Part shown: piece by piece, positions 10,398 to 31,403 of the stretch
Numbering within the stretch: the stretch's first letter is position 1
Layout of the letters: the number at the start of each line of letters is the position of its first letter
Assembly: GCF_003850565.1 (NCBI RefSeq)
Contig: NZ_CP027706.1
Location: 5,394,001 to 5,458,000 of the forward strand
DNA: 64,000 nucleotides
Direction: 5' to 3'
Origin: Pseudomonas sessilinigenes
GTDB taxonomy: Bacteria > Pseudomonadota > Gammaproteobacteria > Pseudomonadales > Pseudomonadaceae
The notes under the pieces: model-generated
What the model saw: the letters and a program-made list of their open reading frames with translations, nothing else
What the model was told of the DNA's origin: nothing
The model's database searches: none
Translations under genes and position numbers: made by a program

Positions 10398-11355
10398 ATC
10401 CCTTGGCTCCTGCCTATATATCCTGCACGTATTTATAAATGATCAAGAACATGATCCTTGGTGAGGATAGCTTCGATCTGCCCTTTATCAAATTTATTTC
10501 AGCTCGCACCTTGCTGGTTGACAGCAGATGCTTGCAGGCTGCGTATATGGAATTTCAATACCAACTTCCAAGCCAACTATAACCACTGCAGTACATTGTA
10601 AGAATCACCAAGTGAACTACCCTGCCCCTATAATTTGAATATTAAAAACAACTCAACTAAATATTCATTTAGTTGAGTTATATCAAAACCCTCAAATTTG
10701 CAGCCTCCTAACCCCTACCCTTTGAGATTCAGCGCCTGTCACTGCGCTGCTTTGCCTGCACACCTGCATGCCTTGAAAGGCACGTCCGATCCCAGTGACA
10801 TCCGGGTGTGACCAACCATTTTGTCGCAAGGGTGATTACAAAACGCTATTAGCGGCATTCGGCATTGGTCGCGCGATCAGACCTAAGGCCTTGAAATAAC
10901 GTGATCTGTAGCCCAGGGCAGACGGCCACAGGAGCATCACCAGAGTGGAGAAAACACCTGCTTGGCGCCTCCTCCCCCACCTCGACAGACGAAGAAGCGG
11001 ACCTAGACTCTCACTCGGTTTAGCCCACTGAATCATGCCCCATACGCAAAGGACATGCTGGCGGCGGCCCTGCTGTTGCCGGTGGCCACTTTGAACAGTC
11101 CCCCGGCCTTTACTAGCGCCTCGGTACAGGGCAACGCCCGGGTCGACCTGACCCTGCGTGCCTTCAGTGCCAATGATCGCAACTGGCATTGGGCACGATG
11201 GCATCGGACAACCGGCCAGCGCTGCTCAGCATTGAGCCCCTTGGGGTATCGGCCAGCAAGGTTCCACCGGAACAAGGAGGTACATGAGGCACAAACCTAG
11301 CGCGCACTGTTGATGAAGATGACCAGTTCAAATCAAACATATTGGAGTACACCTT
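10398..11355. other. Long gene-free region before the repeat-protein operon
   Basis: About 960 bases without a supportable gene; the first 290 are AT-rich, then GC rises sharply near 10700, marking the boundary between the accessory zone and the high-GC biosynthetic region. It contains the hairpin at 10650-10679. TTGGAGT at 11342-11348 is the ribosome binding site for the ATG at 11356. Confidence 0.5.
10650..10679. terminator. Perfect 13-base-pair hairpin with 4-base loop
   Basis: The arm AACTCAACTAAAT is repeated exactly in reverse complement after ATTC. There is no long T run on either side, although the 3' side on the plus strand continues TATATC. It may be a weak terminator, a protein-binding dyad, or part of a mobile-element end; it sits close to the sharp GC change. 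Confidence 0.45.
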
Positions 11356-11865
11356 ATGAACGGACACACCAATCCCTCCTTTGACGAAGCCATGCCACTG
11401 GGGGCGTCTGATGCGCAATTCATCAATGACCTGCACGAGCTACTGGAGCGCCACGGCAACCTGGATCGCTTTGGACTCTGCCTGCTGCACGATCACTTTG
11501 CGGTCGCCGAGGACGAGATTCTCCTCGAGTGCAACGACCATGATGCCCGCACCCTGCATTTGGACGTGGTCAAGCGCGGCTCGCTGCCGGAAAGCAAATT
11601 CACCAGCTGGCGCATCGGTGGCCCCCGGGCCGAGGCCCTGACGGCTTGCGCCATGGACAAATGCAAAGTCGAAGCCCTCACCGCGTGCGCCATGGACAAA
11701 TGCAAGGTCGAAGCCCTGACCGCGTGCGCCATGGACAAGTGCAAAGTCGAAGCCCTCACCGCCTGTGCCATGGATAAATGCAAGGTCGAAGCCCTGACCG
11801 CCTGCGCCATGGATAAATGCAAGGTCGAAGCCCTGACCGCTTGTGCCATGGACAAGTGCAAGTAG
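11356..11865 (+). CDS. Repeat-tailed small protein, candidate peptide precursor
   Basis: 169 residues. Residues 1 to about 90 form a folded-looking domain (ELLERHGNLDRFGLCLLHDHF, AEDEILLECND, LHLDVVKR, FTSWRI) that I take as a leader or carrier domain. From residue 92 to the stop come six tandem copies of VEALTACAMDKCK (the first with Ala at position 1), each with Cys at positions 7 and 12. Thr/Cys-containing repeats behind a conserved leader, followed by two enzyme genes, recall multi-core ribosomal peptide precursors; a metal-binding Cys array is the main alternative. The ribosome binding site TTGGAGT is 7 bases upstream. The next gene starts within the last repeat, so the genes are translationally linked. 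Function is not known. Confidence 0.85.
   Translation: MNGHTNPSFDEAMPLGASDAQFINDLHELLERHGNLDRFGLCLLHDHFAVAEDEILLECNDHDARTLHLDVVKRGSLPESKFTSWRIGGPRAEALTACAMDKCKVEALTACAMDKCKVEALTACAMDKCKVEALTACAMDKCKVEALTACAMDKCKVEALTACAMDKCK
11629..11862 (+). repeat. Six tandem 39-base repeats encoding 13-residue units
   Basis: Six in-frame 39-base units encode the same peptide VEALTACAMDKCK; only the first residue of unit 1 differs. The units differ from one another at several third codon positions (for example AAA/AAG, GAC/GAT, GCG/GCC/GCT, CTC/CTG, TGC/TGT), and every difference after the first residue is synonymous. That is what long-term selection on the peptide sequence would leave, rather than a very recent slippage expansion. 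Confidence 0.95.
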
Positions 11866-12854
11866 CCCAGGGTCCTGCCGATGGCCTGTGGCGGGCACGG
11901 GAGGCCGATCGGCTGCCGTGCTCGTCCTGGCTCGCGCAGTTTTATAGGCGACGCCATGGCGTCTTGCTCGGGTCCGGCACCGCGGCGCTGGAACTGGCAC
12001 TGCGCCAATTGGGTGCCGCCACCACCTGGCGGGTCGCGGTTCCCGCGGCCACCTGCCATCAGGTGGTCGCCGCCGTTCTCAATGTCGGCGCAGTGCCAGT
12101 AATTATCGAGAACGCCGCCGAACTGTTGCTCAGCCGCGAGGCCCTGGCCCCCCACGTCAATGGCCTGGACGCGGTCATTGCGGTCCACCAATACGGCTTG
12201 CCCTGTGACATCCCGGCCTTGCGCCGATTACTGGGCGAGCAGCTACCAATCATCGAAGACAGTGCCGGGGCCTGGGACCTCGACCGCCCCGGCGCCTCGC
12301 GGGTGATCACCTCCCTTGGCCATGGCAAGGCGCTGGACATTGGCGGCGGTGGCGCGCTGTTCGGTGACACACCGGTGGATGGCGATATCGACGTCTGGTC
12401 GCCGGGCCAGCGAGCCCGCGCTTTTCCAGCGTCGAGCCCAGCCTTGTCGATTCATGCCTTGCCGGCGTTGATGCCCGCCATCGCACGGGCCCAGGCCCGC
12501 AGCCAGCGACTGCGGCAGCAAATGCCCGGGCTGCTCGCGCGCTTGCGCGATTACGGCCTGGAACCCTGGGCCGTGGAAGGATCACCGACGCTCAACGGGC
12601 AGTTCATCCCGATCCGCACCCGTGAGCTGCCGCTGTTCGAACGCCTGCGCTACAGCCCCCATGCTGACGCCCTGGGAGTCTGTGCCCCGGCCTCGGCCGC
12701 GCTGCGCGAGCTGCCCATGCTGCGCAACCGGGGCGAGGTGGCCCAGGGACCGCAAACCAGCCTGGAGCTTCACCGCAACTGGGTCCTGCTGGACCCCCTT
12801 GCCGCCCTCGATCACCCCGGGCACCTTGATGCCTGGGCCGGAGACTCTCGATGA
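11856..12854 (+). CDS. DegT/DnrJ/EryC1-type PLP-dependent enzyme
   Basis: About 332 residues from a GTG at 11856 inside the final repeat of the upstream gene; an in-frame ATG at 11817 would add 13 residues, and no other normal start exists before the conserved fold begins. LLGSGTAALELAL is the phosphate-binding loop, IIEDSAGAWD carries the Asp that pairs with the PLP nitrogen, and SLGHGKALDIGGGGALF holds the lysine for the Schiff base. The family makes amino sugars by transamination, but short members also act on amino acids. Here it sits between the repeat protein and a kinase-like protein, with ATGA overlap to the latter, so it may modify the repeat peptide or make a small molecule joined to it (inference). 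Confidence 0.75.
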   Translation: MQVAQGPADGLWRAREADRLPCSSWLAQFYRRRHGVLLGSGTAALELALRQLGAATTWRVAVPAATCHQVVAAVLNVGAVPVIIENAAELLLSREALAPHVNGLDAVIAVHQYGLPCDIPALRRLLGEQLPIIEDSAGAWDLDRPGASRVITSLGHGKALDIGGGGALFGDTPVDGDIDVWSPGQRARAFPASSPALSIHALPALMPAIARAQARSQRLRQQMPGLLARLRDYGLEPWAVEGSPTLNGQFIPIRTRELPLFERLRYSPHADALGVCAPASAALRELPMLRNRGEVAQGPQTSLELHRNWVLLDPLAALDHPGHLDAWAGDSR

Positions 12855-14107
12855 ACAGTCCCGTCGCATTTGAACCATCCCACGACCTGGACCAGCCCTT
12901 CGCTGGCGGCCCCCGGGTGCGCCAGCTGGCCGACTACGCCGGCAGTGGCCAGGCGCTGGAGGCAGAACAGGTGCTCGGGGTGGCCAATGCGCGCGTAGTG
13001 TTCGCCAACTACCCGGCCATTCGCGCCGATTTTGACGCCCTCTGGGAGCCCGTTACGGGCCTTTCCCAGCACGCCGCCATCGACCGCTGGCTGCTACACA
13101 ACGCCGCTTATGTCTCCACTAGCCAAGCGTCGGCGCAAGGCATCAACACGCCAATCGCCCTCGACAATCGACAAGTCACGGCCTGGCGCCCGCCTCGCTA
13201 TGGCCGGGCCGCGGTGCTGTGCGTGCCGGGCAGCGAACAGGTGCTGTTCGACATCAAGGGCATCGGCGTACCGCCGGACGAAGCCCCCGTGCTGCCTAAC
13301 TCCAACGGTTTGTTGACGCTGGCCGAAGCGGTGCACGAGGTGCTGATGGAACACCTGGTGTTCGCCGCCATGAAGCATGCCGGTGGCGCAATCACACCGC
13401 TGCCGGCCTATGCCCTGATCGACCTGGGCTTCGACGCCTTGTGGCATGACGGGCGTCCGCCGGAGCCAGCGGTGCTGCTACTGCGCCGCCCCTGCACCCG
13501 CCCGCGGTGCCAATGGCAACGCTACTGGCAAGGCGCCGAACTGGCCGGGGCGCTGATGCAGGCCGAACTGCTGCTGCGGCGTTATGGCTTGACCGCCAGC
13601 AGCTGTGGCGCCGTGCGTTTCCTGGTTTGCCGGGAGAACGGCGAGGTGCAGGTACGACGCGATGACCAAGCGCTGCCGGTCAGTGACCAGGTGGCCCAAA
13701 CGCTACAACGCCTGCTGGCGGATAACGGGGATAGGCCCCTGCTGATCGATGGCGTCAACGTGCAACTGGCCGGGCCGTCCAGCACCGCGCCATTGCAATT
13801 GCAGGTGATGGACTTCGGTCGCTATCGGTTTGCCGAACATTTCGCGCATCACTTGTATGCCTGGATCGACGCCGACTACCAGAACCTCAACGGCTTGTAC
13901 CTGGCCCCGGACGACTCGCGCTACATCCAGCCCGACCCACGCGTGAGCCTGGCAAGGAGCGCCGAGGGGCCGTGCTTTGCCGAACTGCAACGCCAGGTCG
14001 CCAGCTTCCGCCAGGACGGCGAACCCCAGCGCCTGTGCCAGGCGTTGCGCGCCACCCTGGAAGAAGCCTGCCGCCCTTTGCGCAACCAGACGCCAGCCTG
14101 CCCCTGA
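12851..14107 (+). CDS. Unknown protein with kinase-like DIKG and DFG motifs
   Basis: 418 residues, cytosolic, overlapping the PLP enzyme by ATGA. I do not recognise the family. VLFDIKGIG (about residue 131) could be a nucleotide-site lysine strand, EAVHEVLMEHLVFAAMKHA (about 160) a following helix with a conserved-looking Glu, DGVNVQL (about 300) and VMDFGRYRF (about 318) a metal-binding Asn and DFG pair. This order (Lys, helix Glu, Asn, DFG) is that of protein-kinase-like folds, including SelO-type AMP-transferases. If so, it could phosphorylate or AMPylate the repeat peptide; this is inference from motif order only. Confidence 0.6.
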   Translation: MNSPVAFEPSHDLDQPFAGGPRVRQLADYAGSGQALEAEQVLGVANARVVFANYPAIRADFDALWEPVTGLSQHAAIDRWLLHNAAYVSTSQASAQGINTPIALDNRQVTAWRPPRYGRAAVLCVPGSEQVLFDIKGIGVPPDEAPVLPNSNGLLTLAEAVHEVLMEHLVFAAMKHAGGAITPLPAYALIDLGFDALWHDGRPPEPAVLLLRRPCTRPRCQWQRYWQGAELAGALMQAELLLRRYGLTASSCGAVRFLVCRENGEVQVRRDDQALPVSDQVAQTLQRLLADNGDRPLLIDGVNVQLAGPSSTAPLQLQVMDFGRYRFAEHFAHHLYAWIDADYQNLNGLYLAPDDSRYIQPDPRVSLARSAEGPCFAELQRQVASFRQDGEPQRLCQALRATLEEACRPLRNQTPACP

Positions 14108-14343: not shown

Positions 14344-14913
14344 ATGGTACGTGCCGTCACTATTCTCACCGAGAATTTCTCCGACTGGGAACCCGCGCTC
14401 ATCAACTCCACCGGTCGGGCCTACTATGGTTTCGACACTCGCTTCGCGGCCCCCGGCGGTAAGCAACTGACCTCATCCGGCGGAATGATCATCGTCCCGA
14501 ACCTGGCCATCGAAGCGATCGATCTGGAAGAGGTGGACTTGCTGATCGTGACCGGAGGCCCTATTTGGAAAACCGACCAGGCACCTGAGATCGAGGCACT
14601 GGTACGCTCGGCCCATGCCAAGAAGATCGTGGTGGCGGGCATCTGCGATGGCACCCGGGTCCTGGCCCAGGCGGGAGTGCTGGATCACCTGCAACATACC
14701 TCCAACTCTGCCGAGAACCTGAAGCAGGTGCATTACCGCGGGGCTGACTATTACGAGGACGTCCCCTATGCCGTTGCCGACCATGGGGTGGTCACTGCCC
14801 CTGGCAGCGCGCCTGTCAGCTTCATGGCGCAAATTCTTAACACCTTGGGCCTGAACGACCAGAAACTCGATGCCTACCTGGCCATGCACGCCGCGGAACA
14901 CATTCACTGCTGA
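14344..14913 (+). CDS. DJ-1/PfpI family protein
   Basis: 189 residues with the flavodoxin-like DJ-1 fold. LLIVTGGPIW and VVAGICDGTRVLAQAGVL give the nucleophile elbow, with the conserved Cys in GICDGT; the C-terminal part VADHGVVTAPGSAPVSFMAQIL is the usual end helix region. Members act as glyoxalases, isonitrile hydratases or stress-protective amidases; the substrate here is not evident. It is flanked by two gene-free spacers (236 and about 700 bases), so it is probably transcribed alone, and it may belong to neither adjoining cluster. GAGAAGGAC precedes the ATG. Confidence 0.8.
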   Translation: MVRAVTILTENFSDWEPALINSTGRAYYGFDTRFAAPGGKQLTSSGGMIIVPNLAIEAIDLEEVDLLIVTGGPIWKTDQAPEIEALVRSAHAKKIVVAGICDGTRVLAQAGVLDHLQHTSNSAENLKQVHYRGADYYEDVPYAVADHGVVTAPGSAPVSFMAQILNTLGLNDQKLDAYLAMHAAEHIHC

Positions 14914-15614
14914 AGAGCTTCAGCGCCCGCCTCGGATTTCCCCCGCTTCTGGTGCTACGGCCTGTTATCTGGCTGTAACACTAGAAGCATTGATTCATTC
15001 CCCCGCTACTGCCCTTGATGCTCGCTGCAGATTTTTTCGGTGGCAAAACCGCGAGCTAGAGCGTCCTGATAATTTTTTTTTACAAACAGGAAAAAACTTA
15101 CTTGCGCTTACGACATTACCTACTAAGGTTTTCCCTCGTGACATGTAGGGGTTTACCCTAGGCTCCATCAGGATGAGCTTGGAGCCGTGTCAAAGGATGC
15201 TTTATTTAGATCGCCTCAACGGCGACATTTTTCCTACCCGAGCTAAGGAATGGCTTAATGTATTTGTTTGCCGATATTGTTGTCCGGAACCTGCCAGCCC
15301 CCCTTGCAACCTTTGTCCTCAGCACCTGCGCCCATGAGCGGCTAACCGCAGTAAACGCCCCCCTCCCCCTCGGAACCCTGCCCGACATTCCGTCAGGCTC
15401 CCTCCTTTGCGCGCGCCTCAGAAACTGATCGGCCCGCTCGAGACCCCTTAAAAACCGACGCATTCCTACGACATGAGCGATTGAGACTGTCGTAGATGAA
15501 CTGTGCGTGCCCAATGACTTTCCTGCTGGTCGGGAGGAGCGTGGGCATCTGCAAATGCGCTCGCCATTGGATCGAAACCGCCGCCGGATAACCCCTGCGC
15601 GCCGAGAATCGAAC
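14914..15614. other. Long leader/promoter region of the nonribosomal peptide cluster
   Basis: About 700 bases without a supportable gene. An AT-rich block around 15068-15100 (ATTTTTTTTTACAAAC) stands out from the GC-rich surroundings and is a plausible promoter or UP-type element. The region 15466-15495 carries a dyad (listed separately). The frame of the next gene is open back to about 15507, so a longer N-terminus is possible but has no family support. Confidence 0.45.
15466..15495. promoter_or_regulatory. Dyad CTACGACA-N14-TGTCGTAG, candidate operator
   Basis: Two perfect 8-base inverted half-sites separated by 14 bases, 120 bases upstream of the first cluster gene. The centre-to-centre distance of 22 bases (two helical turns) suits a dimeric or tetrameric regulator on one face of DNA. 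No regulator gene lies inside the cluster. Confidence 0.4.
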
Positions 15615-16736
15615 ATGTCAAAAGTAACAGCTACAGGCTCGTTCAATGAGCCGCTTGAACCATCAGGCATGGTGCAAGCCCTGGCCGATGCCAGGTTCAG
15701 CGTCGAGGCCAAGGCCATGGTTGCCCAGGGCCTCTACACCGGACTTGCCCAGGAAGTTTCCACGGTCATCCCGCTCAAGGACGCCGTACTACCGGACCTG
15801 GAACCCTTGCGCCAACTACTGAACGCCGGCTGGGGCGAAGAACTGGGCCGTTACCTCAAGGTGCTCGAGGTTTGCGGGAACAGCGCTGATGAGGCCCTGC
15901 GTAAAGTCCAGATAGCTGTCAGATCCGGCACTGCGCTGTTTGCCGCCGGCCACCTCGCCACTGACAGCGGAACACAGTGTTTCCTGTCGATCCATCATGG
16001 CCTGGCCGATGAACACAGCCTGCAGATCCTGGCGCGCCTGCTGCAAGCCGAGGACAGCGATTCGGCCCTGGCACAGATGCGCCAGGGGCATGGATTCTAC
16101 GAGGCCTATGTCCAGGCCCAGGCCCGGCCCGAACAGACTGCCCCTGGAGGTTCCATCCCGATGGCGCCACCGATGACACCTGTGCGCCTGCTGCAAACCG
16201 GACGCCTGGCCTTCGACGCCCAAAGGCCGCGCATGAGCCTGCAACGCACCCTGGACGTTGCCGCCAGCAATGCCGACAAGCACCCCATGGCGACCCTGCT
16301 GGCCTGTCTGCAACGGGCTGGAGTCATCGCCGAGGGCAACACCCTGTGTTCCTCCCGTGACTGGCGCCCAGCCCAGCAACAAGACGCCATCGGCATGATG
16401 ACCGGCCTGGTCCCGCTCTCGCTCGAGCCTCTTCAAGCACCGTTGTTCCCCGGGCAAACCAGCCTTGAGGCCCGTGCTCGCCGCTGCCCAGCCGCACGCC
16501 AGGCACTGGATTGCTGCCGCACCAGCGAGCTGTTCATCAATGGCGCGGCCAAGCGCGGCATCCCGGCCTCCCAGGTGATGAGTGCCACGTTCCCGGTGGG
16601 CATCGAAATACGGCGCACGGGGCCTGCGCAGTGGTTCCTGGAGATCGAAGGGCCGTTCTGCGACGCCGCTGGCGCCACCAACCTGATCAATGAACTCGCT
16701 GATGTACTTATGGATAGGAGTGAATGGAATGACTGA
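15615..16736 (+). CDS. Free-standing condensation (C) domain protein
   Basis: 373 residues from the ATG at 15615. SIHHGLADEHSLQIL (His127, His128, Asp132) is the HHxxxD catalytic motif of nonribosomal peptide condensation domains. At 373 residues it is shorter than the usual about 450 and the C-terminal half is divergent, including VMSATFPVGIEIRR in place of the usual latch region. It should form an amide or ester bond between carrier-bound intermediates. It overlaps the next gene (carrier-thioesterase) by 8 bases, so it probably acts directly on that carrier, as a split C-T-TE terminal module working after the A-T-Cy-A-T protein. Confidence 0.8.
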   Translation: MSKVTATGSFNEPLEPSGMVQALADARFSVEAKAMVAQGLYTGLAQEVSTVIPLKDAVLPDLEPLRQLLNAGWGEELGRYLKVLEVCGNSADEALRKVQIAVRSGTALFAAGHLATDSGTQCFLSIHHGLADEHSLQILARLLQAEDSDSALAQMRQGHGFYEAYVQAQARPEQTAPGGSIPMAPPMTPVRLLQTGRLAFDAQRPRMSLQRTLDVAASNADKHPMATLLACLQRAGVIAEGNTLCSSRDWRPAQQQDAIGMMTGLVPLSLEPLQAPLFPGQTSLEARARRCPAARQALDCCRTSELFINGAAKRGIPASQVMSATFPVGIEIRRTGPAQWFLEIEGPFCDAAGATNLINELADVLMDRSEWND

Positions 16737-17730
16737 AAACATCCAGTTCGATGAACAAATCCTCGCCGATGAAGTGGCTCGCGTCTCTGCCATTTTCGCC
16801 GAGGTGCTCAAGCTGCCCCATGTGGGCCAGGCAGACAATTTCTTCAACCTCGGCGGCGACTCCTTCGACGCGATCCGGGTGATGTCGCGCTTGTCTTGCA
16901 ACCTGCCCATCGTGACGCTTTTCGAGCATCCGACGGCTACCGACCTGGCCCGGCGCATCCTCAGCGAAGCTACTCGACAAGCCGCGCGCCTGGTGTGTTT
17001 TGGCGATGCCCAGGCCGCAGCCGGAGCGACCGCCGTGGTTGCCGTGCCTTTCGGCGGCGGCGATGCCACGGCCTATCGCAACCTGTTCCAGGGCCAGCAG
17101 GAGGTACAGGTCTTCGGTGTGGATTTCGGTGACTTCGAAGTCGAGGATGCCTCGGACTTCCATGCCCTGCTCGATACCCTGGCCACTCAGATCGAAGGCA
17201 TTGGTGCCAAGCGACTGGTGATCTATGGCCATTGCGCCGGGGCAGCCACTGCCGCGTGCCTGGCCTCCAGCATGGCTGACAGCCACAAGGGATTGTCACT
17301 GGTCGTGGCCGCCTCGCGCCCGGTGCTGGATGCAGACGCGGCGATACGCGCCGCCGAAGTCACGTCCGACCAGACCTGGACCGATTACCTGCGTTCGCTG
17401 GGCGCCTTTACCGGGCTGTTGGACACCCAGGTCGAGAGCATGCTGGCACGCGGACGCAGGGACCACCTGGTCGCCTGCGAAGCCTATCGCTACCTGGCGC
17501 AGTACCCGGCACGCGACGTACCGGCACTGGTGCTGCTGGGGGATCAAGACCCGGCCACCGCCGAACCCGAAACCGTGCTGGAACACTGGAGCCAGTTCAT
17601 CGACGTCACCCAAGCCGCCACCCTGGCCGGTGGCGGGCATTACTTCGTACGCACCCACGCGCACGAAGTCGAGGAAACCGTGCTGGCGTTCGCAGCACAC
17701 AACACCAATGGAAGGGATAGCAAGCAATGA
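16729..17730 (+). CDS. Carrier protein-thioesterase didomain with Cys nucleophile
   Basis: 333 residues; start at 16729 with GGAG at 16716-16719. Residues 1-85 are a peptidyl carrier domain (FFNLGGDSFDAI, phosphopantetheine Ser45). Residues about 100-325 are an alpha/beta-hydrolase type I thioesterase: VVAVPFGGGDATAYRNL, then YGHCAGAAT with Cys169 where most have Ser, LVLLGDQDP with the Asp, and GGGHYFV with the His. Cys in this position is known from thioesterases that release strained or unusual products, for example obafluorin's beta-lactone-forming ObiF. It probably releases the product of the cluster by cyclisation or hydrolysis. Confidence 0.9.
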   Translation: MTENIQFDEQILADEVARVSAIFAEVLKLPHVGQADNFFNLGGDSFDAIRVMSRLSCNLPIVTLFEHPTATDLARRILSEATRQAARLVCFGDAQAAAGATAVVAVPFGGGDATAYRNLFQGQQEVQVFGVDFGDFEVEDASDFHALLDTLATQIEGIGAKRLVIYGHCAGAATAACLASSMADSHKGLSLVVAASRPVLDADAAIRAAEVTSDQTWTDYLRSLGAFTGLLDTQVESMLARGRRDHLVACEAYRYLAQYPARDVPALVLLGDQDPATAEPETVLEHWSQFIDVTQAATLAGGGHYFVRTHAHEVEETVLAFAAHNTNGRDSKQ

Positions 17731-19082
17731 CAGTCAATCATCAACCACTTCTCACCCAAGCCGATCTGCTCAAGCGTGGCTTGGCCGACCTGCAGGAACA
17801 TGACGCCGAACTGGCGCAGATCCTCGATGCCGAGGTCGCTCGCCAGCAGCGTACCCTGTCGCTGGTCGCCTCTTGCTGCGCAGTCAAGCCGCGCACCTTG
17901 GCAGCTTCGTCCTCCGTGCTGGTCAACGTCACCGCCGAAGGCGTGCCCGGACGCCGCTATCACGCAGGCTGCGAGAACGTGGACCTGGTCGAGTCCCTGG
18001 CGATCCAACGTGCCCGGCAACTGTTCGGTGCGCAATATGCCGGCGTCCAGTCGCACTCGGCCTCCAGCGCCAACTATTCAGTCCTCGCCGCCCTCCTGGA
18101 GCCAGGCGACACGCTGCTGGGCATGGCCCTGGACAACGGCGGCCACCTGACCCATGGCAGCCCCGTGACCTTCTCGGGCACCTATTACAACGCCATCGGC
18201 TACGGCACCACCAAGGAAGGCCTGATCGACTACGACGAAGTCCGCAGGCTGGCCCTGGAGCATCGGCCACGCCTGATCATCTGCGGCGCCACGGCCTACT
18301 CCAGGGTCGTGGATTTCGATCGTTTCCGGCGGATCGCCGATGAAGCCGGTGCCATCCTGATGGCCGACATCTCGCACATCGCCGGCCTGGTGGCGACCGG
18401 ACGCCACCCAAGCCCGATCGACGCCGCGCACGTCACCACCACCTGCACCCACAAGCAACTCGCCGGTCCCCGTGGCGGCCTGATCCTCTCGGGCCGCGAC
18501 GCCAATGAAAAGGTCCCGGGCCGCGACGTGACCTTCGCCCGAGTGCTTGAGCTGGCAGTGTTCCCCAGGATGCAAGGCGCACCGGCGGTCAACATGATGG
18601 CCGCCAAGGCCGCAGCGCTGGGTTACGCCATGACCCCCGAGTTCGATGCCGAGATGCAACGCATCCGCGACGCGGCCGACGTGATGGCCAGCGAGTTCCA
18701 GGCCCGGGATTATGAAGTGGTGGGCGGACGCAGCGAAAACCACACCATCCTGATTCGCCTGCGCGCCAACATGACCGGCGCGATTGCCGAGGCCGCGCTG
18801 GAGCACTGCGGCATCGTCGTCAACAAGAACCGTATCCCCGGGGAGACACGTTCTTCCTTCGTCACCAGCGGCCTGCGCATCGGCACCGGGGCCCTGGCCC
18901 AACGTCATATCGACGCGCAGGGCTGCCGGCAGATCGTTGACCTGCTCTGCCGGATCCTCGACCAGGTGACCCCACAGGGCGATAACGAATTCACCCTGGA
19001 CCCGGCGCTGCGCAAGCAGTTCTGTGCAGAAGCCGAGGCCCTGTGCGTGAAGTATCCGATCGCTGACTACCTGGCCAACTGA
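17727..19082 (+). CDS. Serine hydroxymethyltransferase-like PLP enzyme
   Basis: 451 residues, SHMT-fold type I PLP enzyme. GCENVDLVESLAIQRARQLFG, ADISHIAGLVATGRHPSP and TTCTHKQLAGPRGG (PLP Lys243) correspond to the SHMT core; the folate-binding details of housekeeping GlyA are altered (VNKNRIPGETRSSFVTSGLRIGT). ATGA overlap with the thioesterase gene ties it to the cluster. In other pathways such enzymes are alpha-methylserine hydroxymethyltransferases or threonine transaldolases that build beta-hydroxy amino acids, so it probably makes a non-standard amino acid for the synthetase. It is not the housekeeping glyA. Confidence 0.85.
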   Translation: MTVNHQPLLTQADLLKRGLADLQEHDAELAQILDAEVARQQRTLSLVASCCAVKPRTLAASSSVLVNVTAEGVPGRRYHAGCENVDLVESLAIQRARQLFGAQYAGVQSHSASSANYSVLAALLEPGDTLLGMALDNGGHLTHGSPVTFSGTYYNAIGYGTTKEGLIDYDEVRRLALEHRPRLIICGATAYSRVVDFDRFRRIADEAGAILMADISHIAGLVATGRHPSPIDAAHVTTTCTHKQLAGPRGGLILSGRDANEKVPGRDVTFARVLELAVFPRMQGAPAVNMMAAKAAALGYAMTPEFDAEMQRIRDAADVMASEFQARDYEVVGGRSENHTILIRLRANMTGAIAEAALEHCGIVVNKNRIPGETRSSFVTSGLRIGTGALAQRHIDAQGCRQIVDLLCRILDQVTPQGDNEFTLDPALRKQFCAEAEALCVKYPIADYLAN

Positions 19083-19169
19083 CGCCGCGGCCAGCACCCC
19101 GGCAAACATGGCACGGCGGTCCGAGGATCGCCGTGCTCGGAAAATGCGAACTCTAAGGAGAGAGAAACC

Positions 19170-19904
19170 ATGACGGACAAAATCAAGTATGTCGCCATCA
19201 ATGGCTCGGAGCGGGTGGATGGCAACAATGCCAGGGCACTGGAGTGGGCAGCCGAGTACCTGGAGAAGCAGGATGTGATCCTCGAGGTCTTTTCACTGGC
19301 CAGCGCCAAGATCGACCCCTGTGGGGCCTGCGGCGACTGCAACTTTCGCAACGAGCCTTGCGCGCAGAAGGATGACGCCGCCCGTGCCGTGCGACTCATG
19401 GAAGAGAGCGATGGCGTGATCTTTGCCTGCGCGGTCCATGGCTTTGGCGCAACCCCATTGATGTCGGCGTTCCTGGAACGGGTCGGAACCGGATTCCTGC
19501 GCCACGATCGCACCCTCACCAACAAGGTCGCCGGGGTCATGGTGACTGGCCGGCGCATGGGGCACGTGGAGGTCTACAACCAGATGCTCCAGTGCGCCCT
19601 GCTCAACCGCATGATCATGGTCGGCTACGGCTTCCCGGCGATGCTGGTGGGCGACAAGAAAGGCGAAGTCCTGGGCGACAAGGAAGGCATGGAAATGCTG
19701 CGCCGGATGCTCGATCGCATGGTCTCCATGACCCGCCTGCTGCGCGAGCACGAACGGCTCACAGGCCAGCCGGTACTGCAGGTCTCGGTGCCCGGGGAGC
19801 GCCATCGCGAGGGCACGGACGGCAAGTTCTTCGTTCCGGCCAAGTCCGACATGTACCAGGCCAAGGCCGCCCAGCACTGCAACTTCGATGTGGTTGGCGA
19901 CTGA
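19170..19904 (+). CDS. Iron-sulfur flavoprotein (NADPH-dependent FMN reductase fold)
   Basis: 244 residues. The N-terminus IKYVAINGSERVDGNNARAL is the FMN-phosphate loop of the flavodoxin-like NAD(P)H:FMN reductase fold. CGACGDCNFRNEPC gives four cysteines (51, 54, 57, 64) in the compact CX2CX2CX6C spacing of Isf-type iron-sulfur flavoproteins, which bind a 4Fe-4S cluster and FMN. HGFGATPLMSAFLERVG matches the family's substrate-side segment. AAGGAGAG precedes the ATG. In the cluster it could reduce or oxidise a ring intermediate or nitro/quinone group; the exact redox step is unknown. Confidence 0.85.
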   Translation: MTDKIKYVAINGSERVDGNNARALEWAAEYLEKQDVILEVFSLASAKIDPCGACGDCNFRNEPCAQKDDAARAVRLMEESDGVIFACAVHGFGATPLMSAFLERVGTGFLRHDRTLTNKVAGVMVTGRRMGHVEVYNQMLQCALLNRMIMVGYGFPAMLVGDKKGEVLGDKEGMEMLRRMLDRMVSMTRLLREHERLTGQPVLQVSVPGERHREGTDGKFFVPAKSDMYQAKAAQHCNFDVVGD

Positions 19905-19943
19905 GCTGCGTAGCGCAACGGCACAATAGCTATCGAGAATCTT

Positions 19944-21062
19944 ATGAGCATTAGAACGACCTGCGTTGGCCTCACCGACGCCCTCCTGCGGGACTGGATC
20001 GTAGCGGAACACTTCGAGCGCCTGGCGGATGCAACGGTGGCACAGATTGCCCAGGCCTATGTCGGAGTCTACTCGGCCCGACCGACCAGTTGGCTGGCAG
20101 TCATGGCGCGCAATCGCAACCTCGATCGCAAGGCGGTACTGGCCATGGAAAACGCCAGCGACCTGCTACGAATCCCCGGCATGCGACGCTCCAAGTTCCT
20201 GCTTCCCGGCGAACTGGCGGCCAAGGTCTTCGCCGCCACCCGCTTGCCCCTGGCCAACCACGAATGGCGCCTGCGGGACGTCGGGCTCGGCCTGGACGAT
20301 TACCGGCGACTGCTACCGGCACTGGTCGCGCTGGGCACCCGCGCCACCCTGAACCTGTCAGACATCGGCAAACAACTGGACCTGCCGGGGCCCCAGGCCC
20401 GTGCGGTGACATCGGTCGCCGCCTATGACGGCGCGCTGGTGCGTGTCCCGGCGACGAACCAATGGTCCAGCCGCTGGCTTTACTCCGCCGCTCCGGAAGG
20501 CTTGTTGCCCGGTGATGGCGTCCCCCTGGACCGCGACCAGCTGCAGCGCGATCTGGCCGCGCGCTACCTCGAGCACTACGGACCGGTCACCGTCGATGAC
20601 CTGGCCTGGTGGCTCGGGGTTTCGAAGGAAACCGCACGCACGCTGCTTCAAGCCTGCGCAGCCTGCCAGATCGCCGACCAGATGTGGCACAGCCAGGCGG
20701 GACTGGCACGTCTTGAACAATTCATCCAAAGCACCACCTCCCCGGCAAGCGCGCAGATTCGCTTCCTGCCGGCCTGGGACCCCCTGGTAATGGGTTATGC
20801 CCCGGGTTCGAGGCAGCGCGCCTGCCTGGGGCTGGAACGGGTCGGCGGCTACGACTCGGCCGGGAACGGCCGGCCGGTGGTGCTCATCGGCGGCCGCGCG
20901 GTCGCCACCTGGAACACCGCGGCCAAGGGCAGCAAGCGCTCCCTTAGCATCGATGCCTCGACACTCGCCGACCAGGAGCGCGAAGCCGTACTTGAAGCGG
21001 CCTCGCTACTGGCGCAACAGATCGGGGCTTTTCATGAAATCCAGAACACAACAACAGCGTGA
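19944..21062 (+). CDS. AlkZ/AlkX-like winged-helix DNA glycosylase family protein (HTH_42), probable self-resistance
   Basis: 372 residues. The C-terminal RFLPAWDPLVMGYAPGSRQR...GRPVVLIGGRAVATWN is the hallmark of the HTH_42 (DUF1006) family, which includes AlkX/YcaQ and AlkZ DNA glycosylases that remove bulky or crosslinked bases. Tandem winged helices occupy the N-terminal and central parts (VTVDDLAWWLGVSKETARTLL). The usual catalytic QxQ or QxD near residues 35-40 is not clear: the sequence reads VAQIAQAYVGVYS. AlkZ protects azinomycin producers from their own DNA-alkylating product, and relatives occur in other genotoxin clusters, so its place in this operon suggests the same role. Substrate and activity are inference. 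Confidence 0.75.
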   Translation: MSIRTTCVGLTDALLRDWIVAEHFERLADATVAQIAQAYVGVYSARPTSWLAVMARNRNLDRKAVLAMENASDLLRIPGMRRSKFLLPGELAAKVFAATRLPLANHEWRLRDVGLGLDDYRRLLPALVALGTRATLNLSDIGKQLDLPGPQARAVTSVAAYDGALVRVPATNQWSSRWLYSAAPEGLLPGDGVPLDRDQLQRDLAARYLEHYGPVTVDDLAWWLGVSKETARTLLQACAACQIADQMWHSQAGLARLEQFIQSTTSPASAQIRFLPAWDPLVMGYAPGSRQRACLGLERVGGYDSAGNGRPVVLIGGRAVATWNTAAKGSKRSLSIDASTLADQEREAVLEAASLLAQQIGAFHEIQNTTTA

Positions 21063-21084
21063 CAACAGGGAAGGCACGAACAAG

Positions 21085-24000
21085 ATGAGGGACGACATGA
21101 CATCACTACCCCCCGAAGCACCAGCGCTGCCAGGCAACGAGCGCAGCCTGTGGGACGCGTTCGCAAGCCCGGCGGCCGGACAACCGGCCAGCGACACCCG
21201 GGAGCAGGAAGACCTTGCCCTGCCCCCTGGCCTGGCGGCCAGCATGAACGACCTGACAACGGTCGCTGCGATCCTGGGCTCGCTGCTCAGCCCCGAAGGC
21301 CGAGTCGTCCTGGGAGTCCACGCAGACGGCAAGTCATTGCAGCTGGGCGTCGATGGCACCGCTCTGAACCTGGCAGAAGATGCCCGGGCCTATATCGCCC
21401 AGTTGCGCGCTGACGCCGAAGCGGCCCAGGGCGAGCCAGCCGTGCGCGCCGACATCGAGATCAGCGATGGCACCCACCTGCCACAGGCGCAATCCCCGGT
21501 CTGGCTACTGGTGCAGGAAGGTCGCTGCCAGCTATCGGTACGCAGCGATCGCATGACACCGGCCATGCGCCTGGAACTGCTTGAGCTGGTGCACTTCGCC
21601 TGCGCCCGGGTACTCGATCCCAAGGCCCTGCCGGCGGCTGCGCTGCAGCCTGCCTGCCCGGTTCCTGAGGAAACCGCCCCCCGTGAATTTCTCGTGGAGC
21701 GCATCTACCGCCATGTACAGAGCAAGCCGTCGGCGGTGGCGATCGTGGACGACAACAGCGGCCGTAGCCTGACCTACGCCGAGCTCTGGGACGCCTCCGA
21801 GGCGCTGGTCCAGCACATCCGCGAACGCGTCACTTCCCGCCGCTCGAGCCCGCGCCTGGCGCTGTTCCTGGAGCGCGGCTGGCAACACCTGGCCTCGATC
21901 ATCGCTGTGCAGCGCATGGGGGGCACCTGCGTACTGATCGACCCGGCCCACCCCGATGAACGCATCCGCGCCTTTATCGAAGAATGCACTCCGCATGCGG
22001 TCCTGACCGCTGGCAGCACCAGCGAACGGGCCCGGGACCTGGTGACCTATCCGCAGTTGGATATCGACAAGGTGCAGGTACGCCCCAGCCACGTCGACTG
22101 GGAACATGGCAAGTGGGTCGAGACGACCAACGAAGCCTGCTTTATCGCCGGCACCTCCGGCAGCACCGGGCGGCCCAAGGCCGTGTGCCTGTCCTATCGC
22201 GGGATGGCCGCTACCCTGGATGCCATTATCGAACAGGCCGGGCTGGACGAGCACAGTCGCGGCTCCTGGCTGTCGTCGCCGGGCTACGGAATGGTCGAGG
22301 TCGATCCGTTGCCGGTCCTGTGCGCTGGCGGCACCGTCTGCATTCCGGGCCCGCAGGTGCTGCAGGACGTCAACCTGCTGGCACGCTGGCTGCTCGAAGG
22401 CGACATGAACCATACCCTGGCCATGACCTCCATCGCCGAAGCGCTGTGGGCCACGGGAATCCGCACCGGCCTGCGCACCATGCTGATCGCCGGTGAACGC
22501 TGCAAGCAATGGCCACCCACCGACCTGGGCTATCGGGTGATCAATGTCTATGGTTCGGCAGAGGCGGCGGTGGTTTCCATCGAAGACCTGAGTGCCCCGC
22601 GCCGCACCCTGCTGCCCTCGGTAGGACGGGCGATTCCCGGCGCCCAGATGTACGTGGTCGACCGCCATGGCCAGCAACTGGCGGCGCGTTGCGTGGGCGA
22701 GCTGATCATCACCGGCGAGACGCTGTCGGTGGGCTACGTGAACCCCGAGGACACGAAGAAAGCGTTTCGTGGCAACACCCTGGATACCACGTCCCCCCTG
22801 CAATACAGCACCGGCGATCGGGCACGGATGGCCGCCGATGGCACCGTGGAAATCTTCGGACGCACCGACTCGGTGGTCAAGATCCGCGGACATCGGGTCG
22901 ACCTGACCGAGCTGGAGATCACCGCGCTGCAAGTACCGGGCGTGGTGAAGGCCGCGGCCAACTGCTTGAGCAACGACCTGGGCGCGACCCTGGCCTTGTT
23001 CCTGGAGCTGGCGCCGGACGCCGTGGAGGTGGTCGCCCAGGTGCGCAAGCACCTGGCCACCCGCCTGCACCCGGCCGCGCAGCCTGGCCAGATCGTGACC
23101 GGCGCCCTGCCCCTGGGACGCAACGGCAAGGTCGACTACAGCGCACTGCAGGTCGGCCCCATCGAACGCGATGCGAACCAGACCCTGTTTGTCCCGGTGA
23201 CCCAGGCAGACCACGCCGTACGTGATTGCTGGCTGGCCTGGACGCTGTGCGAAGAAGCGACCCTGGAGTCGAGCTTCTTCGACGCCGGCGGCGACTCCCT
23301 GCGCGCCTTGCGCATGGTCGGCGAGCTGGCCTGCAAGCACGGCATCCATGTACAGATGGGGGCATTCCTCGAGGAGCCGGTACTGGCGAACCTGGTCCGC
23401 CTGGCCAACGCCTCGCGTGATACCCAGTTGCCGAAGTTCGAGCACCTGCCGGCACAGCAGCAACTGCTGCCATTCGAACTCAATGAAAGCCAGCAGGCCT
23501 TGTGGATCGGCCGCGGCTCGTTCTACGACTACGGCGGCGTCGGTTGCCAGGGCTACTTCGAGTGGGAAGTCGAAGCCCTGGATCGCGAGCGCTTCACCCG
23601 GGCCGTGGGCTTGCTGGTCGAGCGCCATCCGATGCTGCGCATGACCATCGACGCCAGCGGTCGCCAGAGTATCGGCGATGTCGACGGGACCCAGGCGGTG
23701 GAGTTCGTCGACCTGAGCGCCATGGAGGCAGACCAGATCGAACTCGAGATCGATCGGGTCCGTGAACGCATGGCCAACGAAGAAATCGGCACCACCCAGT
23801 GGCCGCTGTTCCAGTTCCGCATCAGCCGCATCAGCGCCGCCACCAGTCGCGTGCACCTGTGCATCGACATGCTGATCGCCGACGCCTGGTCGATTTTCCA
23901 GGTGATCATCCCTGACCTGATCGACCTCTACCTGGAGGACGAGCCGCAGTTGCCGGTGCTCCAGACCAGCTTCCACGACTACGTCGCTTATCGCCAACTG

Positions 24001-26598
24001 GTGCTCAAGAGCGCCCAGTACCAGGCCGATCGCGAATACTGGCTGGACAAGATCAACCATCTGCCGGCGGCACCGCGCCTGCCGCAGCTGGAGCCGGGAG
24101 AGTTCGAGGGCCAGTCGCGCTTCGAACGGCACGAAGGCACTCTCGCCGTCGCTGCCTGGGAACGACTCCAGGCCAAGGCCCAGGCCCGCAACATCTCGCC
24201 ATCCGGGGTGGTTGCACTGGCCTTGTGCGAAGTGTTGCGCTGCTGGAGCGAAGAGGATCGGTTCACCCTGAACTTCCCGGTCTCCGACCGGATGCCGGTC
24301 AGCGCCGATATCGACCAGGTCGTCGGGGACTTCACCAATACCCTGCTGGTGCCCTACGAAACCGCCGCCGGCGATACCCTGGAAGCTCGCGGCCAGCAAT
24401 TGCAAGGCGCCATCTGGCAGGCGCTGGACCACCGGCTGTTCAACGGCGTCGAAGTGCTGCGCGAGTTGGCCCGGGTCCGGCGCAGCGGCGGTGCGCCGCT
24501 GATGCCAATCGTCCTCACCAGCCTGCTCGGACACCCCGGGCGCCACGACGCGGCCCGTCTTGGCCAGGAAGTCTACGGCGTTTCGCAGACGCCCCAGGTC
24601 ACCCTGGATGTGCAGCTGCGCGAGTCCGAAGGCACCTTGTACTTCAAATGGGACTACCTCACCGGGGTCATTCGCCCCGAGGTTGTGGAAGCGATGTTCG
24701 GTGCCTTCTGCACCCTGTTGCAGCAATTGGCGGACGACAGCGAGATCTGGCAACGCACCTGGCTCGACCTGCGCCCTGGTGCACAGATCGAAGTGCGCGA
24801 CGCGGTGAACGCGACCCAGGCCCCTGTACCGCCCGTCCATCTGCGTGACCTGCTGCTGGCACGGGTTGCCGAGCGCGCCGAAGAAGTCGCCGTCATCGAT
24901 ACCCTGGGCAGCTACAGCTGGGGCGAGATCGGCCGGGCCGCGACCCGGATCGCCGCGATGATCCAGCAAGCCCATACGCCTGGCGAGCGCTTCGTCGGGA
25001 TCGTGCTGCCCAAGGGCAGCGGGCACTACGCGGCCGTCTACGGCTGCTTGCTGGCCGGGGTCGGTTATGTACCGGTGGATATCGACCTGCCGTCCGAGCG
25101 TATCCGCTCGGTGTTGTCCCAGGCTGGGGTGACCACGGTCATCGCAGGCGCCGATACCCAGTTGCCCGAGCAGGTACAGCGACTGGTGCTGGCGGAGCAG
25201 GACCTGCGCGCCTGGGCCCAGCAGCACACTGACCTGGCACTGGCGCCGCTGGCGGCGGACTACTCGCCGTACGTGATCTTCACCTCCGGCTCCACCGGCA
25301 ACCCCAAGGGCGTCGAGATTCCCGAGGTGGCGGTGGTCAACCATGTGTACGACGTCGTCGAGCGCTTCGGCCTGGACGCCTCAGCCCGCCACCTGGCCAC
25401 AGCCGCGCTGCATTTCGACATGTCGGTCTTCGATATCTTCGGCCCCCTGCTGCATGGCGGCTCGGTGGTGGTGCCCGCCCAGGCGGCAGGGCCCGACCCG
25501 GATGCCTGGCTACGCCTGCAGCGTCGCCACGGCGTGACGTTCTGGGCTTGCGTGCCGGCCATCATGGACCTGCTGTGCAGCGTTGCAGAGACCGCGCGCA
25601 GCTTCTCGGCGGTGGAGTCGCTGGCCAACATCGTCATGGCGGGCGACTGGATCCCCATGCCGTTGCTGCCACGGGCCAGGGCGCTGTATCCGCAGGCGCG
25701 GCTGTACTCCTGCGGCGGCCCTACCGAGACCACCAACTGGTCGGTGCTGCACGAGATCGACGAGCAGGAAGGCCAACTGGTGCGTTCGGTGATCTACGGC
25801 GCACCAATGCGCAACTCGGCTTATCACATCATCGCCGGCGACTGGACCGATTGCCCGGACTGGGTTCCCGGGGAAATGCTGGTGGAAAGCGATATCTCCC
25901 TGGCCTGCGGCTACATCGGCCAACCGGAGCTGACCCGCAAGGCCTTTGTCCAGCATCCGCGCAGCGGGCGACGCATGTACCGCACCGGCGACCTGGGACG
26001 CTACCTGCCCAACGGTGAGATCGAGATCCTGGGGCGTATCGACAACCAGATCAAACTCAACGGCCTGCGTATCGAGCTGGGTGAAATCGAGAGCGTGGCC
26101 GAGTCCTGCCCCGGCGTCTCGCGAGCCTGCGCCGTAGCGCTGCCGGGCCCGGACGGGCATCCCAAACAGATCGCCCTGGTGTATGTCGGCGAGCCGGACC
26201 TGGCCTCGGCAATCACCCAGGCCCTGACCCTGCGGCTGCCTGCCTACATGGTGCCGAAGTCTGTCCAGCCGCTGACCCAATTGCCCCTGTCGAAGAACGG
26301 CAAGGTGGATGTACTTGCCCTGCGTGAACTCCTGAGGAATGACATGAAAGACTCCAATAGCAAGACTCCGCAAACCATCCTGCGCACCGTGATCCGAGTC
26401 ATCGCCAGTCATCTGGAGGAGCCGGTGGTACTGCCCGAGGACAACTTCTTCGACCTGGGCGGCGATTCGCTGTCGGCGATGAAGATCAAGATCGAACTCG
26501 AGTCCCAGCTGTCCATCGCCGTTCCCCTGGAAAACCTCATGCTCACCGAGACCATCAGTGAGTTCGCCAGCAGCCTGAACGCGGGGAGCCAGCCATGA
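21085..26598 (+). CDS. Nonribosomal peptide synthetase, A-T-Cy-A-T
   Basis: About 1837 residues from ATG 21085 (GGGAAGG 10 bases upstream; ATG 21097 also possible). Order: unassigned N-terminal 200 residues; A1 (about 200-700, AGTSGSTGRPK); carrier T1 (FFDAGGDSL, about 735); heterocyclisation domain (about 796-1235) with DMLIADAWS (the DxxxxD motif of Cy domains replacing HHxxxD), VVGDFTNTLL and SQTPQVTLD; A2 (about 1260-1730, FTSGSTGNPKG); T2 (FFDLGGDSL, about 1787). A1 has Gly where alpha-amino-acid-activating domains have Asp235, implying an aryl or other non-alpha-amino substrate. A2 has HFDMSVFDIFG, similar to Cys-activating domains. The Cy domain should join them and close a thiazoline or oxazoline. 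No methyltransferase, epimerase or thioesterase is present; release needs the downstream carrier-thioesterase. Confidence 0.9.
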   Translation: MRDDMTSLPPEAPALPGNERSLWDAFASPAAGQPASDTREQEDLALPPGLAASMNDLTTVAAILGSLLSPEGRVVLGVHADGKSLQLGVDGTALNLAEDARAYIAQLRADAEAAQGEPAVRADIEISDGTHLPQAQSPVWLLVQEGRCQLSVRSDRMTPAMRLELLELVHFACARVLDPKALPAAALQPACPVPEETAPREFLVERIYRHVQSKPSAVAIVDDNSGRSLTYAELWDASEALVQHIRERVTSRRSSPRLALFLERGWQHLASIIAVQRMGGTCVLIDPAHPDERIRAFIEECTPHAVLTAGSTSERARDLVTYPQLDIDKVQVRPSHVDWEHGKWVETTNEACFIAGTSGSTGRPKAVCLSYRGMAATLDAIIEQAGLDEHSRGSWLSSPGYGMVEVDPLPVLCAGGTVCIPGPQVLQDVNLLARWLLEGDMNHTLAMTSIAEALWATGIRTGLRTMLIAGERCKQWPPTDLGYRVINVYGSAEAAVVSIEDLSAPRRTLLPSVGRAIPGAQMYVVDRHGQQLAARCVGELIITGETLSVGYVNPEDTKKAFRGNTLDTTSPLQYSTGDRARMAADGTVEIFGRTDSVVKIRGHRVDLTELEITALQVPGVVKAAANCLSNDLGATLALFLELAPDAVEVVAQVRKHLATRLHPAAQPGQIVTGALPLGRNGKVDYSALQVGPIERDANQTLFVPVTQADHAVRDCWLAWTLCEEATLESSFFDAGGDSLRALRMVGELACKHGIHVQMGAFLEEPVLANLVRLANASRDTQLPKFEHLPAQQQLLPFELNESQQALWIGRGSFYDYGGVGCQGYFEWEVEALDRERFTRAVGLLVERHPMLRMTIDASGRQSIGDVDGTQAVEFVDLSAMEADQIELEIDRVRERMANEEIGTTQWPLFQFRISRISAATSRVHLCIDMLIADAWSIFQVIIPDLIDLYLEDEPQLPVLQTSFHDYVAYRQLVLKSAQYQADREYWLDKINHLPAAPRLPQLEPGEFEGQSRFERHEGTLAVAAWERLQAKAQARNISPSGVVALALCEVLRCWSEEDRFTLNFPVSDRMPVSADIDQVVGDFTNTLLVPYETAAGDTLEARGQQLQGAIWQALDHRLFNGVEVLRELARVRRSGGAPLMPIVLTSLLGHPGRHDAARLGQEVYGVSQTPQVTLDVQLRESEGTLYFKWDYLTGVIRPEVVEAMFGAFCTLLQQLADDSEIWQRTWLDLRPGAQIEVRDAVNATQAPVPPVHLRDLLLARVAERAEEVAVIDTLGSYSWGEIGRAATRIAAMIQQAHTPGERFVGIVLPKGSGHYAAVYGCLLAGVGYVPVDIDLPSERIRSVLSQAGVTTVIAGADTQLPEQVQRLVLAEQDLRAWAQQHTDLALAPLAADYSPYVIFTSGSTGNPKGVEIPEVAVVNHVYDVVERFGLDASARHLATAALHFDMSVFDIFGPLLHGGSVVVPAQAAGPDPDAWLRLQRRHGVTFWACVPAIMDLLCSVAETARSFSAVESLANIVMAGDWIPMPLLPRARALYPQARLYSCGGPTETTNWSVLHEIDEQEGQLVRSVIYGAPMRNSAYHIIAGDWTDCPDWVPGEMLVESDISLACGYIGQPELTRKAFVQHPRSGRRMYRTGDLGRYLPNGEIEILGRIDNQIKLNGLRIELGEIESVAESCPGVSRACAVALPGPDGHPKQIALVYVGEPDLASAITQALTLRLPAYMVPKSVQPLTQLPLSKNGKVDVLALRELLRNDMKDSNSKTPQTILRTVIRVIASHLEEPVVLPEDNFFDLGGDSLSAMKIKIELESQLSIAVPLENLMLTETISEFASSLNAGSQP

Positions 26599-29317: not shown

Positions 29318-29898
29318 AAGTGATGCTAATCGACGCCTTCGACAGCTTCGTCTATGTCATCGAGCAGTACTATTCGGCCGCCGGTGCGCAGACCAAGGTC
29401 GTTCGCGTCAACGACGACCCGCTTGCCCACTATCGGCAGTGGCAACCGCAGTTGCTGGTCCTGGGACCCGGCCCGGGTACTCCCGAGGACCATGGTTACC
29501 CGCAGATAATTCGTGCGATGGATGAACAGCAGGCTATTTTTGGTGTCTGCCTGGGGCACCAGGCACTGGGCGAACATTTTGGCTGGAAGCTCACTCGTGC
29601 GCCTACCACCGAACATGGCAAGTACGCCCAGGTCCACCACGACGCCAAGGGCATTTTCCAGGATGTGCCTTCGGCGCTCACCGTGGTGCGCTATCACTCG
29701 CTGGCGATCACCGAGCCGCCAACGCCCACCGCCCTGATGGCCACGGCCTATTCGGACGATGGCGTGAACATGGCGGCGCGGCACCGTACCCGGCCAATTG
29801 AAAGCGTGCAGTTTCACCCCGAGAGCATTGGTACCGACTACGGAATCCAAATGATCCGTAACTCGCTGGCCCTGGCCAGCGTCAACGCCATGAGCTGA
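29314..29898 (+). CDS. Anthranilate synthase component II-like glutamine amidotransferase
   Basis: 194 residues; ATG at 29314 overlaps the stop of component I. VLGPGPGTPEDHG is the oxyanion/glutamine loop, GVCLGHQALGE holds the catalytic Cys, and VQFHPESIGTDYG the His-Glu of the triad. It supplies ammonia from glutamine to component I through a channel. All three triad residues are intact. It is cytosolic and functions only as a complex with the product of the preceding gene. Confidence 0.93.
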   Translation: MKVMLIDAFDSFVYVIEQYYSAAGAQTKVVRVNDDPLAHYRQWQPQLLVLGPGPGTPEDHGYPQIIRAMDEQQAIFGVCLGHQALGEHFGWKLTRAPTTEHGKYAQVHHDAKGIFQDVPSALTVVRYHSLAITEPPTPTALMATAYSDDGVNMAARHRTRPIESVQFHPESIGTDYGIQMIRNSLALASVNAMS

Positions 29899-29969
29899 TC
29901 GCTCGAGGAAAAACCTGGGTGCCGGCCGGATGCCGGCCGACACCCATTACATCTAAGGATTGGATAGAC

Positions 29970-31394: not shown

Positions 31395-31403
31395 GTTATC
31401 GTC

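Follow-up and report, generated by a model that had tools for sequence, protein, structure and literature searches.

The 64,000-nucleotide stretch of the Pseudomonas sessilinigenes genome analysed here (the window; contig NZ_CP027706.1, positions 5,394,001 to 5,458,000) carries a module of three overlapping genes, the first of which encodes a small protein ending in a series of nearly identical repeats and the last an enzyme with a SelO-like fold. The module comprises the following features:

11356..11865, + strand: substrate-like protein of 169 aa (amino acids; translation of the open reading frame, ORF), conserved domain at residues 1-91 followed by six 13-residue units
11629..11862, + strand: six 39-nt (nucleotide) units [A/V]EALTACAMDKCK, with only silent variation past codon 1
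11856..12854, + strand: DegT-type pyridoxal phosphate (PLP) enzyme of 332 aa (Pfam), whose GTG start overlaps the stop of the repeat gene (GTGCAAGTAG in the window)
12851..14107, + strand: SelO-fold enzyme ('kin') of 418 aa (AlphaFold model, fold matches, K136/N303/D321-F-G)

A first-pass annotation of this DNA had described a leader-like domain with six 13-residue repeats, and this architecture was borne out, with a domain of 91 residues and 6 x 13 residues behind it. Residues 92-169 are made up entirely of the units, unit 1 reading AEALTACAMDKCK and units 2-6 reading VEALTACAMDKCK. Tandem Repeats Finder reported positions 11631-11862 with a period of 39, 5.9 copies, 89% match and a score of 352, compared with scores of 58 or less for the three other rows in the window. 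The further claim that the repeats differ only synonymously past residue 1 also held: of the 12 codon columns that follow the first, eight show variation, and every change is silent and falls on codon position 3. Because a random point change in the units is expected to be silent in only about 20% of cases (28% with transitions weighted), the chance of finding eight out of eight is about 3e-6 to 4e-5, calculated as if the units were unrelated by descent, and the silent-only differences are therefore not explained by chance. The same pattern was found in two further Pseudomonas genomes (G061 and G108) and in P. protegens FD6, with 7 (G061), 5 (FD6) and 6 (G108) varying codon columns and no amino-acid change, while in P. 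chlororaphis PCL1601 amino-acid changes occur in four codon columns and are confined to the first two of its units. The number of units, which the annotation had recommended comparing across strains, varies: six in the window, G061 and G108, five in P. protegens FD6 and nine in P. chlororaphis PCL1601, and outside Pseudomonas five in Aquimarina and one in Lentzea. Aquimarina and Pseudomonas do not have the same spacers between their units. Purifying selection thus acts on the 13-residue unit, and copy number shifts between relatives while the unit sequence hardly does.

The AlphaFold model of the 418-aa enzyme has a pLDDT (predicted local distance difference test) of 94.4 and finds its best fold matches in SelO/YdiU, at 12-14% sequence identity. 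In an alignment of 69 family members (A2: the proteins of the window and of locus L022 and 67 of 80 search proteins, 13 near-identical or short ones being left out), K136 and the D321 of the DFG motif are conserved in 69/69 and N303 in 66/69; these residues were equated with SelO positions by motif, not by superposed coordinates. None of the 69 members matches PF02696, the SelO family, at E 0.1. Judged by the model, the enzyme family is a member of the SelO superfamily that lacks a Pfam model of its own. It has in common with SelO/YdiU, a protein AMPylase/UMPylase, the kinase-like fold and the nucleotide-site Lys, Asn and DFG Asp, and differs from it in the missing PF02696 match and in adjoining, and apparently pairing with, a dedicated small protein. 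An ordinary SelO is encoded elsewhere in the window's genome. Synthetases of NRPS-independent siderophores (NIS; AsbB, AcsD, IucA and others; NRPS, nonribosomal peptide synthetase) matched the fold more weakly. They use free small-molecule substrates.

The distribution of the repeat motif was compared with that of the enzyme gene at 44 genome loci encoding the domain, by tblastn on the fetched flanks, some of which are clipped by contig ends. DUF6185 was found at 35 loci (with Pfam confirmation for four of them), the SelO-like enzyme at four and neither at five, with no overlap. The motif C-x-x-D-[KH]-C-K is confined to the four enzyme loci, which span three phyla; elsewhere the tail holds a Cys pair at most. 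The 'kinase-like' neighbour that the first-pass annotation had proposed as a partner is thus the gene that the motif tracks (4/4 enzyme loci against 0/40 others). That annotation had further held that repeat-free homologues never occurring near these genes would speak against it; this objection does not hold, as in the actinomycete Lentzea a homologue with a single GCKEDKCK tail is encoded directly before the enzyme gene, while relatives in Streptomyces, also an actinomycete, end in C-x4-5-C-P. Among database proteins, five of 16 with the motif, and none without it, apparently lie on the same contig as an enzyme match; one protein (P0001) apparently lies on the G108 contig, where the enzyme gene is present in a broken form. 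In a domain tree of 33 hand-picked sequences including the window's, a Pseudomonas group (L016/P0113) is nested within the motif clade (support 0.90) and has lost the Asp, both Lys and the repeats, with the Cys pair and the Thr kept. The L016 genome, the one genome of this group checked, contains no match to the SelO-like enzyme. We read this group as a natural experiment, which suggests that without the enzyme the D-K-K residues are not retained whereas the Cys pair and Thr are. Since this enzyme-free lineage kept the Thr, and since the Thr is absent from some enzyme-linked cores, the Thr, mentioned in the first description of the repeat, is an unlikely target of modification.

The PLP gene is a less constant companion. 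Its product matches Pfam DegT_DnrJ_EryC1 (1.7e-18; 67.4 bits, cut-off 19.8), an Asp and the Lys within a GHGK stretch line up with 3-amino-5-hydroxybenzoic acid (AHBA) synthase, and the catalytic Lys is kept. Start and length of the gene are identical in all five Pseudomonas copies, and in each of them its GTG falls among the final codons of the repeat gene, and it overlaps the enzyme gene at ATGA. These coupled overlaps make joint translation of the three genes probable. For the window against G061, nonsynonymous and synonymous divergence (dN and dS) were 0.009 and 0.232 over the repeat gene's first 93 codons, 0.083 and 0.399 for the PLP gene and 0.107 and 0.566 for the SelO-like gene; the corresponding values for the SelO-like gene of G108 are inflated by a two-piece match with an internal stop. 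The PLP gene was present at 2/44 loci, both in Pseudomonas. Of the two overlapping genes that had been proposed to make the product, the SelO-like gene therefore stands as the constant partner of the motif and the PLP gene does not, being found at only two of the four enzyme-linked loci.

Relatives of the N-terminal domain numbered 23 from a first search and 107 from a profile search, together 118 distinct proteins. Their tails comprise C-x-x-D-[KH]-C-K (16 proteins), C-x4-5-C-P (12), C-x1-4-C followed by two His (65) and other Cys pairs (10), and 15 have none by pattern, some of these having short or odd ends. In a 39-sequence alignment, R38, F39, G40, H45, H47, F48, E54, E58 and R65 are invariant together with the two tail Cys. 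A separate alignment (A5) holds 69 picked relatives and the window's protein; loci L061-L063 are contained in alignment A3, L060 and L064 are covered by annotation only, and L103 and L104 stand outside the analyses. The distribution of the domain is rare and scattered: profile searches found it in three of 398 Pseudomonadota genomes, the window's among them, and in one of 296 genomes of the phylum of Aquimarina, namely Aquimarina itself, and within the genus Pseudomonas matches were convincing in 4/199 genomes (the window's, G061, G108 and G057). Pfam and NCBIfam contained no fitting model, yielding only a sub-threshold repeat match; the candidate, Lysostaphin N-terminal repeats (PF25533), was rejected at 23.7 bits against a family cut-off of 60. 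The open-access literature returned no match for the repeat letters and none for DUF6185, the neighbour of the domain in Streptomyces, and the family of small partner domains seems to be undescribed.

Several variations on the domain were noted in passing. Four proteins (P0107, P0108, P0109 and P0111) carry it twice in tandem with a single C-x-C tail. A Parcubacteria relative with an ACSC tail is encoded about 1 kb upstream of a radical SAM/SPASM enzyme gene (L054:9947-12485). Motif-free members occur on ten Pseudomonas plasmid records (L062:4968-5339), nine of which share identity and span, and on one annotated plasmid a DM13-domain gene and insertion sequences adjoin.

Upstream of the module, the window retains a trace of a much larger gene, listed here with a feature of the module in G108:

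11056..11281, + strand: frame-broken 3' remnant of a giant LysM gene (tblastn pieces and nucleotide match to G061)
G108, L066 5151-6602, - strand: SelO-like gene matched as two parts separated by a stop (match to the enzyme)

With the P. protegens giant protein as query, tblastn aligned 11094-11177 and 11177-11281 in different frames, and the nucleotide match to G061 begins at 11056. Ahead of the module, the giant gene is present in P. protegens FD6, in G061, where it encodes 3474 aa with LysM as the sole domain above the Pfam cut-off, and in Lentzea, whose protein shows 28% identity along about 2800 aa. In P. chlororaphis PCL1601 the final 248 residues of the protein are encoded ahead of the module, at a contig edge, and the rest elsewhere in the genome, and the window and G108 retain just its 3' end. 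When 2989 residues of the giant protein were searched against six genomes, there was one match, in P. chlororaphis PCL1601, and none in the genomes of the window, G108, Aquimarina and two others. In G061 (L070:16385 to L065:13108), the module is also preceded by genes for proteins of 111, 310 and about 1199 aa and by an endonuclease/exonuclease/phosphatase-like gene just under the Pfam cut-off.

Our favoured explanation, for and against which we see the balance as roughly even, is that the 169-aa protein and the SelO-fold enzyme form a substrate-enzyme pair. What the analysis shows is the architecture of the protein, the selection on its units, the joint occurrence of the motif with the enzyme in three phyla, the SelO fold of the enzyme model and the conserved nucleotide-site residues; from there we infer that the protein serves as substrate, which residue is hit and by what chemistry, the part played by the PLP enzyme and any release of peptides. 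The conserved N-terminal domain would present an element ending in C-x-x-D-K-C-K, singly or repeated. The SelO-like enzyme would recognise either the unit or the small domain itself and, with ATP-Mg, modify every copy, with the invariant Asp-Lys(-Cys-Lys) as the most likely site rather than the Thr. The reaction could be a nucleotidyl transfer, or an activation of the Asp carboxylate followed by its joining to an amine or thiol (Lys, Cys or an amine from elsewhere). Repetition would then create several modification sites on one polypeptide, and the PLP enzyme may be an accessory step added in Pseudomonas, where, as a guess, it might supply the amine. Various observations weigh against such a pair. 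Hhalign against 19 SelO sequences gave a weak result (66% over 95 columns), and recent work (PMC13391479) describes SelO as an NADase too, so that the fold does not fix the chemistry. The enzyme frame of G108 is broken and its repeat protein intact, enzyme linkage is neither shown nor excluded for 10/16 motif proteins, several supports in the domain tree are low, and the loci share ancestry, so that 4/44 does not represent 44 independent trials. Moreover, of all parts of the tail the Cys pair, rather than D-K-K, has the widest distribution and occurs also without the enzyme, so the Cys-pair element has an older, enzyme-independent role; this role may be metal or thiol chemistry, which the modification may tune.

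The alternatives to this pair overlap with it and with each other, the readings not being mutually exclusive. Foremost among them, and in our view somewhat unlikely, is an unmodified metal or redox Cys array, a possibility that the first-pass annotation had itself raised for the metal-binding case, in which the domain, with its invariant H-x-H and two Glu, and the Cys pair handle metal or an Fe-S cluster, the repeats multiply the sites and the enzyme has only a regulatory part; the enzyme-linked tails, however, lack the His and yet hold a fixed D-K-K that is superfluous for a plain thiol site, and the L016 lineage drops precisely these residues and keeps the Cys pair. The recurrence of the giant LysM gene, or its end, before the module would fit a role of the module as chaperone, modifier or immunity factor of that protein, the window holding leftovers after its loss, and the broken enzyme frame of G108 points the same way. 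We regard this as unlikely, because Aquimarina has the protein and the enzyme in a genome with no match to the giant, and the three genes of the window are still open and, when compared with relatives, have a dN far under their dS, which does not date the loss.

The first-pass annotation had proposed a multi-core peptide precursor. On this reading, the SelO-like enzyme and the PLP enzyme would modify the units, which would then be excised and set free as small peptides. Like precursors of multi-core RiPPs (ribosomally synthesised and post-translationally modified peptides), the protein joins a conserved N-terminal part to a constant, selected unit in variable copies and is encoded in a tight operon with two possible modifying enzymes, and microcins offer a precedent for maturation by a SelO-like enzyme: MchC/MceJ of the siderophore microcins are, according to PMC3281104, remote relatives of SelO. 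By that description, they too are SelO-related enzymes encoded with a ribosomal peptide that needs them for maturation; here, no HlyC-like partner (MchD/MceI) or secretion genes were found among the scanned neighbours, and the tail is C-x-x-D-K-C-K and often repeated. The supposed leader, in contrast to that of a precursor, is an independent conserved domain that occurs without the motif and without the enzyme at 40/44 loci. No protease or exporter was found among the Pfam-scanned neighbours of the module (part of the ORFs in the window, G061 and Aquimarina), which also counts against the substrate-enzyme pair. Classical RiPP enzymes (LanB, LanC, LanM, YcaO, radical SAM, ATP-grasp, MNIO) are likewise absent among the 24 larger ORFs Pfam-scanned at 2.5-35 kb of the window. 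Single-core enzyme-linked relatives exist (L022, P0112, P0117), and the spacers are unlike in Pseudomonas and Aquimarina. Thus the selected unit, its variable number and the enzyme-linked motif stand, while the leader is not confined to precursors and the PLP gene is inconstant, and the release of small peptides appears quite unlikely to us.

If the substrate-enzyme pair is real, it gives an uncharacterised branch of the SelO superfamily a defined substrate motif, in a compact, scattered pairing of a SelO-fold enzyme with its own small repeat-bearing partner; if the enzyme modifies the units, the two are a new kind of peptide-modifying pair. More tentatively, the module might represent a new class of repeat-core proteins with post-translational modification in Pseudomonadota, Bacteroidota and Actinomycetota, in which a Pfam-less SelO-superfamily enzyme adenylates or cross-links the Asp-Lys/Cys of one to nine C-x-x-D-K-C-K copies on a dedicated carrier domain.

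Downstream of the module lies one further gene group:

14344-32675, + strand: NRPS-like cluster (Pfam scan of the window ORFs)

It encodes a DJ-1/PfpI protein, a condensation-like protein, a carrier-thioesterase, a homologue of serine hydroxymethyltransferase (SHMT), a flavin mononucleotide (FMN) reductase, an AlkZ-like DNA glycosylase, an NRPS, an unmatched 441-aa protein, a chorismate-binding enzyme, a major facilitator superfamily (MFS) protein, whose gene at 29919 belongs to the cluster, and a condensation domain. The 14.1-33.4 kb stretch holding it is absent at the same site in G061 and P. protegens, and the cluster looks unrelated to the module. As a guess, the AlkZ-like glycosylase might confer self-protection from a DNA-damaging product of this cluster.
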